Assembly (NCBI RefSeq): GCF_006385175.1
Contig: NZ_VFIY01000005.1
Location: forward strand, 7,501-71,500
DNA: 64,000 bases
From: Emcibacter nanhaiensis
GTDB taxonomy: Bacteria; Pseudomonadota; Alphaproteobacteria; Sphingomonadales; Emcibacteraceae
Reading direction: 5' to 3'
A model generated the notes under the pieces. The model was not told the DNA's origin and ran no database searches. It was given only the letters and a program-made list of their open reading frames with translations. Within the stretch, counting starts at the first letter, position 1. Each line of letters opens with the position of its first letter. This document shows positions 11,604-56,020 of the stretch, piece by piece. Made by a program: the position numbers and the translations under genes.

Positions 11604-11619
11604 TTAATCTTATGTTAAC
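11604..11619. promoter_or_regulatory. CtrA-type box TTAA-N7-TTAAC
   Basis: TTAATCTTATGTTAAC is an exact match to the alphaproteobacterial CtrA full-site pattern TTAA-N7-TTAA. It lies in the AT-rich 283-base gap between ptsP and the rodZ-like gene, which otherwise holds no ORF, RNA gene or clear terminator that I can see. The likely target is the rodZ-like gene reading leftward from 11434. Confidence 0.45.
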
Positions 11620-42922: not shown

Positions 42923-43750
42923 TTATACAGTTCCCTTTTTCTCGGCATCATATTTCTGTTTCAGGTTCATCACCGCCACCGCCGTTTCCTCGATGGAGCG
43001 CCGGGTGACGTCAATCACCGGCCAGCCGTGCTTGGAAAACAGGCGCCGGGCCATTCTCACCTCTTCCCGCACCGCATCTTCGTCCACATAGGTGGTTTCC
43101 GGATCCTGTTTCAGGGACAAAAGCCGGTTGCGGCGGATCTGGATCAGCCGGTCGGCGCTGTTGACCAGGCCGACCACGAATTTATGTTTGTTTTCTTCCA
43201 GTTCCCGGGGAATGGGACAGCCGGGCACGATCGGCACGTTGGCCGCCTTGATGCCGCGGTTGGCCAGGTAAATACAGGTCGGCGTTTTCGAGGTCCGGGA
43301 CACGCCGACCAGGATGATATCCGCTTCCCTGAGGCCTTCCGTCAGCTGGCCGTCATCATGGGCCAAAGTGTAATGAATAGCATCAATCCGGTCGTAATAG
43401 GCTTCATTCATCTCATGCTGCAGGCCCGGCCGGGCGATACTGGTTTCACCAAGATGCATGCCCAGTTCGCGGATAATGCCCTGCATCACCGAAATATAGG
43501 GCCAGTTATATTCTTTGCAGGCACCCACCAGGACTTCCTCGATTTCCGGATTGACCAGGGTAAACATGATCAGGCCCGGTTTTTCCTTGAATTCCGGGAT
43601 GATGCGTTCCATGTGCCGGGTGGTGCGGATCATCGGCCAGTGATGCTTGATCGGTTCAATATCAGGAAACTGCGCCAGGGCGGCCTTGGCAACCTGTTCC
43701 AATGTATCCCCGGTGGCATCGGAAACCAGATGGAAAGTGACTTGCTTCAT
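42923..43750 (-). CDS. ppsR: Pyruvate, phosphate dikinase / PEP synthase regulatory protein (DUF299)
   Basis: A 275-residue bifunctional kinase/pyrophosphorylase. FHLVSDATGDTLEQVAKAAL opens it, and GVSRTSKTPTCIYLANRG is the nucleotide-binding P-loop of the family. It inactivates PPDK or PEP synthase by ADP-dependent threonine phosphorylation and reverses it with Pi. In Alphaproteobacteria the gene flanks the chromosome origin, and here its start is about 50 bases from the first DnaA box. It is first in the ppsR-maf-aroE-coaE-dnaQ run. Confidence 0.96.
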   Translation of the reverse strand: MKQVTFHLVSDATGDTLEQVAKAALAQFPDIEPIKHHWPMIRTTRHMERIIPEFKEKPGLIMFTLVNPEIEEVLVGACKEYNWPYISVMQGIIRELGMHLGETSIARPGLQHEMNEAYYDRIDAIHYTLAHDDGQLTEGLREADIILVGVSRTSKTPTCIYLANRGIKAANVPIVPGCPIPRELEENKHKFVVGLVNSADRLIQIRRNRLLSLKQDPETTYVDEDAVREEVRMARRLFSKHGWPVIDVTRRSIEETAVAVMNLKQKYDAEKKGTV

Positions 43751-43957
43751 TATAAAATTCCGTATTTTTGTTTCTGGTCGAACCCGGATATCAGGCTGAA
43801 TTGTGGATTATGTGGATAACCCGGACTTTTCCGGACAGATGCCGTTTTTACACACATTATTCTTTTTTCGTCCCTGAAAAATCCCCCTCTGGATAAGATA
43901 AAAGGAAACTCTGTGGGAATCACCAATAATTTTTTCTCCCCCAGGGCCGCGGGAGAC

Positions 43958-43975
43958 TTATCCACATTATCCACA
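43958..43975 (+). other. Abutting tandem DnaA boxes
   Basis: Two perfect 9-mers TTATCCACA stand directly head to tail with no spacer, in the middle of oriC. This 18-base unit could seat two DnaA molecules side by side and start a filament toward the AT-rich part. Confidence 0.85.
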
Positions 43976-44118
43976 TTTTTCGGAACCTTTGAATCTTCCG
44001 CTGTTCACAAAGTTATTCAGAAAGGATCGAAATTTCCTGTTTTTTTGTCTTTCAGGCTGCTATGTCAGTAAATCTGTGGATAAAATTTAATCCCTGTTAT
44101 CCACAGGGATCCACTACA

Positions 44119-44160
44119 ACATCATCTTTTTATTTATATAAATATAAATAGTAATTCTAT
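44119..44160. other. Putative DNA unwinding element of oriC
   Basis: 42 bases with only 4-5 G/C, mostly alternating TTTATTTATATAAATATAAAT. It lies 13 bases after the last perfect DnaA box and 26 before hemE. Low melting stability plus position beside a DnaA box pair fits a DUE. Confidence 0.65.
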
Positions 44161-44186
44161 CAGTGCATAACTTCAGGCCGAGCTTC

Positions 44187-45230
44187 ATGACGGAAAACAA
44201 GAGATTTATTGAAACACTCAAAGGTCAGCTGACGGACAGACCGCCCTTCTGGTTCATGCGCCAGGCCGGCCGTTACCTTCCCGAATATATGGCTGTCAGG
44301 AAGGAAGCGGGGTCGTTCCTGGACCTTTGTTACAATCCGGATTTTGCGGTTGAAGTCACTTTGCAGCCGCTCCGGCGCTACGACATGGATGCGGCGATCC
44401 TGTTTTCAGATATCCTGGTCATTCCCCATGCCCTGGGCCAGCATCTGGAATTCCGACAGGGCGAAGGACCGGTTCTGGAGCCGGTCGACAGTGTGGCGAA
44501 ACTTGACGCGCTTTCCCTCGATCATCTGCATGACAAACTGGCCCCGGTATATGAGACGGTTTCCCGCCTGTCGACGGAAATCCCCTCGCACACCGCGTTG
44601 ATCGGATTTGCCGGCGCGCCCTGGACGGTGGCCACCTATATGGTCGGCGGCAAGGGCTCTCCGGATCAGGCGGCAGCCCGTCTCTGGGCCTACCGGGACG
44701 AGGTGGCCTTCCAGGCGCTGATGGATCTTCTGGTCGAAGCTACCTCGCGCTATCTGATCCGTCAGGTGGAGCAGGGGGCCGAGGTGCTGCAGATATTTGA
44801 TACCTGGGCCGGAAATCTGCCCATGGGCGAATTTCGTAAATGGTGTATGGCGCCGACGAAAAAGATTGTCGACAATATCCGTGCCCGTTTTCCGGACATG
44901 CCGATCATCGGATTTCCGCGGGGGGCGGGACCGCGCTATCCGGACTATGTGCGGGAGACCGGGGTGACAGCTGTCAGCATCGACACTTCCATGCCGGCAG
45001 ACTGGGCCCGGGATAATATCCAGATGCTGTGTCCGGTGCAGGGCAATCTGGATCCCCTGCTGCTGGTCAGCGGTGGCGAAGCCCTGAAGCAGGCGGTGAC
45101 GGATATTCTTGATAGTCTTTCGGGGCGGCCGTTTATTTTTAACCTGGGTCACGGCATTGTGCCGCAGACCCCGCCGGAACATGTGGCGCTGGTTTCAGAA
45201 ATGATCAAAGAGTATGTCAGAAGCGAATAA
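44187..45230 (+). CDS. hemE: Uroporphyrinogen decarboxylase
   Basis: A 347-residue enzyme that turns uroporphyrinogen III into coproporphyrinogen III. The signature [16 protein letters not shown] is at residues 19-34, and [13 protein letters not shown] marks the second motif; FPRGAG and NLGHGI close it. A GTG at 44163 would add 8 codons and lies inside a DnaA-like box; ATG 44187 is the conserved family start. It overlaps hemH by 17 bases. First gene to the right of oriC. Confidence 0.97.
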
Positions 45231-50165: not shown

Positions 50166-51512
50166 ATGACAATTTATGCACTTTCCAGCGGCAAGGGACG
50201 CGCCGGCGTGGCTGTCATTCGTCTTTCCGGTGAGAAAGCCGGCGAGGTATTGCTGCAACTGTCCGGTCTGTCCCGACGGCCTGTTCCACGTGAAGCAAAA
50301 CTGACCTGGTTTCGCGATCCCGAAACCTCGGTGCGCCTGGATCATGGTCTGGCCCTGTATTTCAGCGCACCAAACAGCTTTACCGGCGAAGATGTGGTCG
50401 AGTTCCATATCCATGGCGGACGCGCTGTGGTCGCCGGCTTACTGGAGGCGCTGTCCAAATTCACCGGCGTGCGGCCGGCCGAGCCCGGGGAATTTACCCG
50501 CCGGGCCTTTGACAACGGCAAGATGGACCTGACAGCGACCGAAGCACTGGCTGACCTGTTGAACGCGGAGACCGAAGCCCAGCGGCGGCAGGCATTGCGC
50601 CAGATGGACGGCCAGCTGGGGGAACTTTATGACGGCTGGCGCCGGGAAATCATCTCTGCCATGGCCTATCTGGAAGCGGATATAGATTTCGCCGACGAGG
50701 AAATTCCGGAGGATGTCACCGCCCGGGTGCGCCCGATCATCGAAAAACTTCACGTGAAAATAACGGATCATCTGGCGGACGGTCATCGGGGGGAACGGAT
50801 CCGCGATGGCCTGCAGGTGGTGATTCTGGGCCAGCCCAATATCGGCAAGTCGTCGCTGATGAATTATTTGTCCCGCCGGGAGGTGGCCATTGTTTCTGAC
50901 ATTGAAGGCACCACCCGGGATGTGCTGGAAGTGCATCTGGATATCCAGGGCTTTCCGGTCACCATCATTGACACGGCGGGCCTGCGCGAAAGCGGTGATG
51001 TGATTGAGGCGGAAGGCATGCGCCGGGCCCGGGCGCGGGCGGAACAGGCGGATGTGCGCATCGTTATGACCGAGGCATCGGCATGGCCGGAAATCGGAAC
51101 GGAGACTTCCGCTATGATTGACGACGAGACAATCATCATCCTCAACAAGATGGATCTGGTACCGGACCGGGAAGAGCTGGCGCGCCGGATCAAGGCGGCT
51201 GGCGGCAATATTTATCCCGTTTCCCTGAAGAACGGGGAGGGCCTAGATCAATTCATGCGGGGCCTCGAACAGACGGTGGCTGGTAAAATGGATCTGGCCG
51301 AGGCGCCGAGCCTGACCCGGACCCGCCATCGCCAGGCGTTGAAAGACTCAGTGGATCATCTGGAAAGGTTTCTGACCAACCGGACCGGGGAACTGGAGCT
51401 TCTGGCGGAAGATTTGCGGCTCGCCGCCCGGGCCCTGGGCCGGATTACCGGCGCGGTTGATGTGGAAGATATTCTCGATGTTGTCTTCTCAGAATTTTGC
51501 ATTGGTAAATAG
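50166..51512 (+). CDS. mnmE: tRNA modification GTPase MnmE
   Basis: A 448-residue protein that works with MnmG to place 5-(carboxymethyl)aminomethyl groups on U34 of tRNAs. The N-terminal folate-binding part has VAVIRLSGEKAG and AEPGEFTRRAF. The G domain has G1 GQPNIGKSS, G3 DTAGL and G4 NKMD. The C-terminus ends FCIGK, the catalytic Cys motif. A parS-like site lies in its 5' part (50282-50297). mnmG follows after 217 bases. Confidence 0.97.
   Translation: MTIYALSSGKGRAGVAVIRLSGEKAGEVLLQLSGLSRRPVPREAKLTWFRDPETSVRLDHGLALYFSAPNSFTGEDVVEFHIHGGRAVVAGLLEALSKFTGVRPAEPGEFTRRAFDNGKMDLTATEALADLLNAETEAQRRQALRQMDGQLGELYDGWRREIISAMAYLEADIDFADEEIPEDVTARVRPIIEKLHVKITDHLADGHRGERIRDGLQVVILGQPNIGKSSLMNYLSRREVAIVSDIEGTTRDVLEVHLDIQGFPVTIIDTAGLRESGDVIEAEGMRRARARAEQADVRIVMTEASAWPEIGTETSAMIDDETIIILNKMDLVPDREELARRIKAAGGNIYPVSLKNGEGLDQFMRGLEQTVAGKMDLAEAPSLTRTRHRQALKDSVDHLERFLTNRTGELELLAEDLRLAARALGRITGAVDVEDILDVVFSEFCIGK
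50282..50297. other. parS-like site within mnmE
   Basis: TGTTCCACGTGAAGCA differs from the site at 51576 by one base. It codes V-P-R-E-A of MnmE residues 40-44. Confidence 0.7.
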
Positions 51513-51553: not shown

Positions 51554-51569
51554 TTAACAATTTGTTAAC
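51554..51569. promoter_or_regulatory. CtrA-type box TTAA-N7-TTAAC before mnmG
   Basis: TTAACAATTTGTTAAC exactly fits TTAA-N7-TTAA and is close to a palindrome. It lies in the 217-base mnmE-mnmG gap, 6 bases from a parS site. The remaining gap shows no ORF. Confidence 0.45.
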
Positions 51570-51575
51570 CAGTGA

Positions 51576-51591
51576 TGTTCCACGTGAAACA
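51576..51591. other. parS centromere site (intergenic)
   Basis: TGTTCCACGTGAAACA matches the universal bacterial ParB site TGTTTCACGTGAAACA at 15 of 16 bases. Intergenic, between mnmE and mnmG, 3.5 kb before parAB. Confidence 0.92.
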
Positions 51592-53608: not shown

Positions 53609-54232
53609 ATGAGATTTGGGCCGGACGACTTTTTCCACGAGATTAATGTTCCACGTGAAACCCGGGAAAAGCTGGAGATATATGCGGATCTGCTGGAAAA
53701 ATGGCAGAAACGCATCAATCTGGTCAGCCCGACAACCATCAGCGACAAATGGTGGCGCCATTTCTATGATTCCGCCCAGGTCATGGAGCTTTTGCCGAAA
53801 GAACGGCTGGGAACCCTGAAAATCCTCGATATCGGCAGCGGCGCCGGCTTTCCGGGGCTGGTGTTGTCCGTTATGGGGGCTGGGGAAGTCCATCTGGTGG
53901 AAAGCAACAATAAAAAATGCACCTTCATGAACCAGGTGATCAGGGAGACCGGGGCGCCGGCGACGGTACATTGCAAACGGATTGAGGAACTTACCCCCTT
54001 TTCGGTCGATTTTGTCACCTCCCGGGCTTTGGCCACCATCGATAAACTGCTACAGTTGCTGAGCGGTTTTATTACGGAGGAGACCGTCTGCCTGTTTCCC
54101 AAGGGGAAGACCTGGCAGGAGGAACTGGCGGAAGCGGAAAAAAACTGGCAGTTTCACGTGGAAAAATACACAAGCAAAACTGAAGAATCGGGTATGATCC
54201 TGAAACTAGGCAGAATAAGGCCTCGCGGCTGA
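53609..54232 (+). CDS. rsmG: 16S rRNA (guanine-527-N7)-methyltransferase RsmG (GidB)
   Basis: A 207-residue SAM methyltransferase. YADLLEKWQKRINLVSPTT and LDIGSGAGFPGLVLSVMG are the family motifs, and TSRALATIDKLL another. It methylates 16S rRNA G527; loss gives mild streptomycin resistance in many bacteria. Two parS-like sites are inside the coding sequence, near its start and end. Confidence 0.96.
   Translation: MRFGPDDFFHEINVPRETREKLEIYADLLEKWQKRINLVSPTTISDKWWRHFYDSAQVMELLPKERLGTLKILDIGSGAGFPGLVLSVMGAGEVHLVESNNKKCTFMNQVIRETGAPATVHCKRIEELTPFSVDFVTSRALATIDKLLQLLSGFITEETVCLFPKGKTWQEELAEAEKNWQFHVEKYTSKTEESGMILKLGRIRPRG
53647..53662. other. parS-like site in rsmG start
   Basis: TGTTCCACGTGAAACC: one change from 51576 at the last base. 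It codes N13-V-P-R-E-T18 of RsmG. Confidence 0.8.
54150..54165. other. parS-like site near rsmG end
   Basis: AGTTTCACGTGGAAAA, the opposite orientation of the same 16-mer with two changes. It codes Q-F-H-V-E-K of RsmG, about 90 bases before parA. Confidence 0.6.
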
Positions 54233-54255: not shown

Positions 54256-55068
54256 ATGTCCACAAACTTATCCACAGACCGGAAAAAGCCTGAAATTATT
54301 GCCATCGCCAACCAGAAGGGCGGGGTGGGAAAAACCACCACCACCATCAACCTGGGCACGGCCCTGGCGGCGGCCCGGAAAAATGTTCTGATTGTGGATC
54401 TGGATCCCCAGGGCAACGCCAGCACCGGCGTCGGCCGCGAGCGCGATAACCGGGACATCACCAGCTACGACGTGATGATGGAGGAAGCAACTCTGTCCGA
54501 TGCCATCGAGAAAACCGATATCCCGCGGCTGTTTCTGGTATCGTCCACCATTGACCTGACCGGGGCGGAACTGGAGCTGGTGGACCAGGCGCAGCGCACC
54601 TTCCGGCTGAGAAATGCCTTCAAGGACCCGGCAGTCGAGCAATTTGACTATATTCTGATTGATTGCCCGCCGTCGCTCAATCTGCTGACCCTGAATGCCC
54701 TGTCGGCAGCGGATTCCGTGATTGTGCCGCTGCAATGCGAGTTTTTCGCCCTCGAAGGGCTAAGCCTGCTGCTCCGGACCATTGAAACCGTCCAGGCCAA
54801 CTTTAATCCGAAGCTGAAAATCGAGGGCATTGTCCTGACCATGTATGACGGACGTAATAACCTGTCCGGCCAGGTGGCGCAGGATGTGCGCAGCTATCTG
54901 GGCGACAAGGTGTTCAAGACGGTGATTCCCCGGAACGTACGGATTTCCGAAGCGCCGTCGCACGGCAAGCCGGCGCTGCTCTATGATCATAAATGCACCG
55001 GCAGCCAGGCTTATATCCGGCTTGCGACCGAGCTTCTCCGGCGTGAGAAAAACTTCCGTGCCGCATAA
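54256..55068 (+). CDS. parA: Chromosome partitioning ATPase ParA
   Basis: A 270-residue Walker-type ATPase. The deviant Walker A NQKGGVGKTTTTINLG is at about residues 17-32, and DLDPQGNASTG and IDCPPSLNLLTLNAL follow. ParA-ATP coats the nucleoid and draws ParB-parS complexes apart. No N-terminal HTH, as for chromosomal Soj-type proteins. The codons for residues 5-7 contain a perfect DnaA box. Confidence 0.97.
   Translation: MSTNLSTDRKKPEIIAIANQKGGVGKTTTTINLGTALAAARKNVLIVDLDPQGNASTGVGRERDNRDITSYDVMMEEATLSDAIEKTDIPRLFLVSSTIDLTGAELELVDQAQRTFRLRNAFKDPAVEQFDYILIDCPPSLNLLTLNALSAADSVIVPLQCEFFALEGLSLLLRTIETVQANFNPKLKIEGIVLTMYDGRNNLSGQVAQDVRSYLGDKVFKTVIPRNVRISEAPSHGKPALLYDHKCTGSQAYIRLATELLRREKNFRAA
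54268..54276 (+). promoter_or_regulatory. DnaA box in the 5' end of parA
   Basis: TTATCCACA, perfect, 12 bases into the parA coding sequence and outside oriC. Confidence 0.5.
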
Positions 55069-55099: not shown

Positions 55100-56020
55100 A
55101 TGACCAAAGAAGAAAAAGTAAAAGCAAAAAGCCAGAAAGGGCTGGGCAAAGGCCTTTCCGCCCTTCTGGGGTCCACCGACCGGGAATATGCCGCCGTTGA
55201 AAAGGGAGAGAGTGCGCCGGCCCGGCCGGACCGGGAGCTGCCGATTGAGTTCCTGAAAGCCAATGCCTATCAGCCGCGCAAGTATTTTGACGAGGAAAAG
55301 GCCCGGGATCTGGTGGAGTCGATCCGCGAAAAGGGGATCCTGCAGCCGATCCTCGTGCGTCCCAAAGGGGCTGAGGCCTATGAAATCATCGCCGGGGAGC
55401 GGCGCTGGCGCGCCGCCCAGGCCGCCGGCCTGCACAAGGTGCCGGTCATTGTCCGCGAGCTGACCGACGGCGAAGCGCTGGAAATCGCCATTATTGAAAA
55501 CGTCCAGCGCCACGACCTGACCCCGATCGAGGAAGCGCTGGGGTATCAGCGGCTGATCGATGAATTCGGCCATACCCAGGAGAAACTGGGCAAGATCGTC
55601 GGAAAAAGCCGCAGTCATATCGCCAATATCCTGCGCCTGCTGGCCCTGCCGAAAAAAGTCCAGGATATGCTGATGGATGGATTGCTGAGCATGGGCCATG
55701 CCCGCGCCCTGATTACGGCAGAAAATCCGGAAAAGCTGGCGGCCCGCATTATCGAGGAAGGTCTCAGTGTGCGCCAGGCCGAGAAAATCGCCAAGGAAGC
55801 CAAGGGTCCCAAACAACCGCTGGAGACCAAATCGGCTGTTTCGCCCGGCGCAAAGGACGCGGATACCCTGGCGCTGGAGAATGATCTCAGTGAGTCGCTC
55901 GGCCTCAGGGTGCAGATTGATTTCCAGGACAACAAGGGGGGCGAGGTGCGAATCCGCTATAAAACCCTGGAACAGCTGGATGATATCTGCCAGAGACTGT
56001 CCGGAAACGAGGAATTCTGA
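55100..56020 (+). CDS. parB: Chromosome partitioning protein ParB
   Basis: A 306-residue CTP-dependent sliding clamp that loads at parS. The basic N-terminus GLGKGLSALLG meets ParA; the CTP-binding part has PRKYFDEEKARDLVESIREKGILQPI and EIIAGERRWRAAQAAGL. The HTH (TQEKLGKIVGKSRSHIANILRLLALP) reads parS. The C-terminus is a dimer domain. Four candidate parS sites are within 6 kb upstream. Confidence 0.97.
   Translation: MTKEEKVKAKSQKGLGKGLSALLGSTDREYAAVEKGESAPARPDRELPIEFLKANAYQPRKYFDEEKARDLVESIREKGILQPILVRPKGAEAYEIIAGERRWRAAQAAGLHKVPVIVRELTDGEALEIAIIENVQRHDLTPIEEALGYQRLIDEFGHTQEKLGKIVGKSRSHIANILRLLALPKKVQDMLMDGLLSMGHARALITAENPEKLAARIIEEGLSVRQAEKIAKEAKGPKQPLETKSAVSPGAKDADTLALENDLSESLGLRVQIDFQDNKGGEVRIRYKTLEQLDDICQRLSGNEEF

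Follow-up and report, generated by a model that had tools for sequence, protein, structure and literature searches.

In the 64,000-nucleotide stretch of Emcibacter nanhaiensis DNA that was analysed (the window), ppsR (42923–43750, minus strand), encoding a kinase/pyrophosphorylase (PF03618, NF003742), and hemE (44187–45230, plus strand, with its ATG at 44187), encoding uroporphyrinogen decarboxylase (TIGR01464), diverge on either side of an intergenic region of 436 bp (43751–44186). This gap is richer in A+T than the genome, with 38% GC versus about 57% in most samples of contig C5, and its borders, as an earlier note on this DNA had pointed out, are the same two genes between which the experimentally mapped origin of Caulobacter, Cori, is located (PMC1914354).

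Regarding DnaA boxes, the gap contains five exact ones, at 43811 (−), 43958 (+), 43967 (+), 44075 (−) and 44097 (+), which agrees with the earlier count; first-order shuffles of the gap gave a mean of 0.007 exact boxes and a maximum of 1 in 20,000 trials, and the gap holds the sole cluster among the 36 exact boxes of the 3.96-Mb draft genome. One-mismatch boxes, previously given as three, number two, TAATCCACA at 43802 and TTATCCAGA at 43888–43896, both on the minus strand. The former abuts the exact TTATCCACA box at 43811–43819, forming a pair (43802–43819, −) whose second member aligns in relatives; the latter is 77 bp from the 43811 box, a spacing kept in the complete same-family genome G002 and in others. 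Two further exact boxes abut at 43958–43975 on the plus strand (TTATCCACATTATCCACA), and G002 has the same 9-bp spacing with TTATCCCCA; finally, the exact box at 44075–44083 (−) is opposed to that at 44097–44105 (+), and stands 22 bp before it. The same distances between boxes (77, 9 and 22 bp) are found again within the family, and relatives often carry TTATCCCCA where E. nanhaiensis has TTATCCACA.

The 44097 box, identified by the scan and by alignment, adjoins the presumed unwinding site. It is followed by a conserved spacer and trinucleotide stretch, GGGATCCACTACAACATCATC (44106–44126, +), a candidate DnaA-trio element that reads CTA-CTA in relatives, and then by an A/T-only run of 24 bp (44127–44150), already recognized in the earlier note, which nearly all family members have and which is presumed to be the DNA unwinding element. 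In the family alignment, conservation of the gap is highest across a CACAGG-ATCC-ACTAC block, the CTA/CAA trinucleotides after it and the A/T run. The arrangement of a strong box and a conserved trinucleotide stretch leading into an A/T run resembles the basal unwinding system (BUS), in which a DnaA box, a spacer and a DnaA-trio unwinding element have been described across bacteria, including Bacillus subtilis (PMC8287927), and the trios of the relatives read 3′-GAT-GAT-5′ as in that system; the conservation in relatives rests on the alignment, the automated trio search having been set aside because it picked inconsistent boxes. In E. nanhaiensis, unlike the BUS, the stretch reads TAG-TAG-AAA-AAT-AAA-TAT, and not GAT, after a spacer of 15 bp. 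The BUS criterion is three or more 3′-NAN-5′ trios within 16 bp of a DnaA box; six NAN trios follow the 15-bp spacer here, a number only marginally above chance, since six or more trios arise in 4% of shuffles and three or more in 79%.

GC skew was the check set beforehand for an origin at this point. Cumulative skew in the 64-kb window has its minimum at about 44.6 kb, and is negative to the left of the gap and positive to its right. Of the 19 contigs that make up the draft genome, seven were sampled, contig C5 (760 kb) every 39 kb; on C5, negative skew is confined to the part before the gap, and the next 700 kb are positive. In the six other contigs no minus-to-plus switch was found between samples, the last sample of contig C18 being mixed, and contig C4 has a plus-to-minus switch, like a terminus. 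The switch therefore falls at the gap, with no second minimum where the genome was sampled. The pattern recurs in two complete chromosomes from this family: the G002 record has the ppsR–hemE gap at both its start and its end, and its skew stays positive over roughly the first 1.5 Mb and is negative beyond 1.65 Mb up to the last base, and in G001 the switch is within 4,090,001–4,110,000, with the start of hemE at 4,099,095.

The gene order is also widely kept: across 58 loci representing eight families of this order, ppsR is nearly always next to hemE, the gap being about 290–560 bp long. The resemblance to Cori of Caulobacter crescentus covers the hemE and COG1806/ppsR flanks, the DnaA box cluster, the A/T-rich stretch and the proximity of parS (PMC1914354, PMC4468827), with some differences: the boxes are strong TTATCCACA boxes in place of the moderate G-boxes and weak W-boxes of Cori, no match to the IHF consensus WATCARNNNNTTR was found within the gap, and the five CtrA sites of Cori have no counterpart. 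Computed support for oriC thus consists of the box cluster, the skew switch, the gene order, the nearby parABS genes and sites described below, and conservation. Together these bear out the earlier call of a chromosomal origin beside hemE, and with high confidence the gap can be read as oriC, the one site at which replication of the E. nanhaiensis chromosome begins; it is almost certainly an ordinary alphaproteobacterial origin of the hemE type, well supported and in the usual location for the class.

As for DnaA binding, the unwinding point and timing at oriC, we infer them from the sequence. DnaA-ATP would bind the strong boxes of the gap, bridging the inverted tandem pairs of abutting boxes at 43802–43819 and 43958–43975 and also filling the opposed pair 22 bp apart (44075/44097); starting at the 44097 box, it would spread along the conserved trinucleotide stretch and open the 24-bp A/T run at 44127–44150, next to hemE. 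The helicase would load there and two forks would leave, with hemE transcription co-directional with its fork.

Concerning CtrA, no match to TTAA-N7-TTAA with 0 or 1 mismatch occurs within the gap, which contains five weak two-mismatch matches, one TTAA and no TTAAC; the absence of the site from the gap, noticed previously, is thus confirmed. The regulator itself is encoded in the genome, with 77% identity to that of Caulobacter, along with GcrA, SciP and a CcrM-type RAMA domain protein, and its binding specificity appears standard because TTAAC-N6-TTAAC is enriched genome-wide (25 matches, the reversed control giving 5). An exact CtrA site is likewise absent from 57 of the 58 same-order gaps, the single exception being a very A/T-rich gap; the control genome G110, whose CtrA is 87% identical to that of Caulobacter, has two exact sites in a gap of 61% GC, and six other genomes picked for a Caulobacter-like CtrA have one exact site per gap. 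According to the literature, only the origins of Caulobacter and perhaps Rickettsia show CtrA sites (PMC4468827): the Sinorhizobium meliloti origin has neither CtrA motif nor CtrA binding (PMC4433202), and CtrA of Brucella abortus does not bind the origin (PMC2877005); a counter-case is Wolbachia, for which predicted origins with several CtrA motifs were reported (PMC1914354). E. nanhaiensis is similar to S. meliloti and B. abortus, which belong to a different order, in having CtrA in the cell and an origin that is free of its motif or not bound by it. The remark on CtrA in the earlier note was therefore right but to be expected, as relatives and published origins mostly have no such sites, and their absence is the rule for alphaproteobacterial origins and not a surprise. 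Its suggestion that origin control may differ from Caulobacter is likewise supported, but describes what is usual for these origins: control here probably differs, CtrA probably does not bind oriC directly, and it may act away from oriC, by analogy with Sinorhizobium. Elsewhere in the window, a perfect CtrA-type site, TTAATCTTATGTTAA, is present at 11604–11618 within an A/T-rich stretch.

Two GANTC (CcrM-type) sites were found in the gap by motif scan, at 43917–43921 and 43991–43995, the same number as in the earlier note; an enrichment of GANTC in oriC was considered and rejected, given that 1.96 sites are expected by chance. The motif is strongly depleted in the window as a whole, with 94 sites versus 284 expected from shuffles. 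A separate case is that of genomes G047 and G035 (loci L169 and L170), in which the ppsR–hemE gap is 451 bp long and has 13 GANTC sites against 1.7 expected, with shuffles never exceeding 8; CcrM-linked origin control is possible in their genus, judging from these counts.

Other explanations of the gap and of its control were weighed. The boxes could serve for DnaA titration or for control of the hemE and ppsR promoters, with the true origin elsewhere on the chromosome, and regulated alphaproteobacterial promoters do have DnaA boxes as well (PMC4468827); however, the skew switches at the ppsR–hemE gap in three genomes, neither a second box cluster in the draft genome nor a second skew minimum in the sampled contigs was found, and parABS is close by, so that this explanation is highly improbable. 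With the gap taken as oriC, CtrA could still control it through diverged or half sites missed by the TTAA-N7-TTAA scan, a proposal in line with the five two-mismatch matches and with the presence of CtrA, SciP, GcrA and the CcrM-type enzyme in the genome. It is unlikely in view of the enrichment of the perfect motif elsewhere, of the single TTAA and missing TTAAC of the gap, and of the same-order gaps, nearly all of which have no exact site. Timing of the origin by CcrM methylation at the two GANTC sites is similarly unlikely: the sites are present, the window is depleted of the motif and the genome encodes the CcrM-type RAMA domain gene, but two is the number expected by chance in the gap, and the count in most family members is between zero and two. 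The preferred reading remains that of an ordinary hemE-type origin with no direct binding of CtrA.

At a distance of 6–12 kb from the gap are the segregation genes parA (54256–55068, +) and parB (55100–56020, +), both from the gene annotation, accompanied by four parS or parS-like sites; in Caulobacter, parS is within 8 kb of Cori (PMC4468827). The cluster was found by a relaxed scan, as the canonical 12-bp core matched in one place elsewhere and the local sites use TGTTCCACGTGAAACA. An exact parS (51576–51591) is upstream of the mnmG–rsmG–parA–parB run; sites with one mismatch are inside mnmE (50282–50297, also present in G002) and inside rsmG (53647–53662), and a parS-like site with two mismatches is at 54150–54165. 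The parS upstream of mnmG, at the head of the run, occurs in essentially all relatives. In E. nanhaiensis, a CtrA-type site detected by motif scan, TTAACAATTTGTTAAC (51554–51569), is located 22 bp before it. Across 46 upstream-of-mnmG regions, exact CtrA-type sites are all at −22 from parS, in six genomes of three genera (51554–51591 of the window, L197, L201, L202, L212 and L256), and at no other parS offset; 0.6 are expected over all regions and offsets, and three of the six genomes are close relatives, which leaves about four independent cases. Titles and abstract openings in the literature contained nothing clearly relevant to a CtrA site beside parS.

A DnaA site is also associated with parA, as an exact TTATCCACA box, found by the box scan, covers codons 5–7 of the gene (54268–54276). 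Of 30 parA loci compared (L294–L323), 20 contain one or more exact boxes close to the start of the gene, some of them two in tandem, 12 bp apart, and such boxes occur even where those of oriC are degenerate. Where ParA retains the peptide LST, it is usually encoded as TTA-TCC-ACA, one of 144 possible spellings, a preference pointing to selection at the DNA level. The parA- and parS-linked sites suggest control of segregation by DnaA and CtrA. A broader proposal, that in this family cell-cycle inputs sit at the segregation locus and not at oriC, with CtrA and DnaA timing segregation and CtrA leaving oriC alone, is tentative and, in our judgement, more doubtful than probable.

In conclusion, the origin is now placed for a little-studied alphaproteobacterial family, in a branch that keeps CtrA, GcrA, SciP and a CcrM-type enzyme with no CtrA sites at the origin, which supports the view that the origin control of Caulobacter is a local invention. 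It is the composite sites near parS and parA that merit closer attention; they suggest, in testable form, where cell-cycle control may be exerted instead of at the origin.
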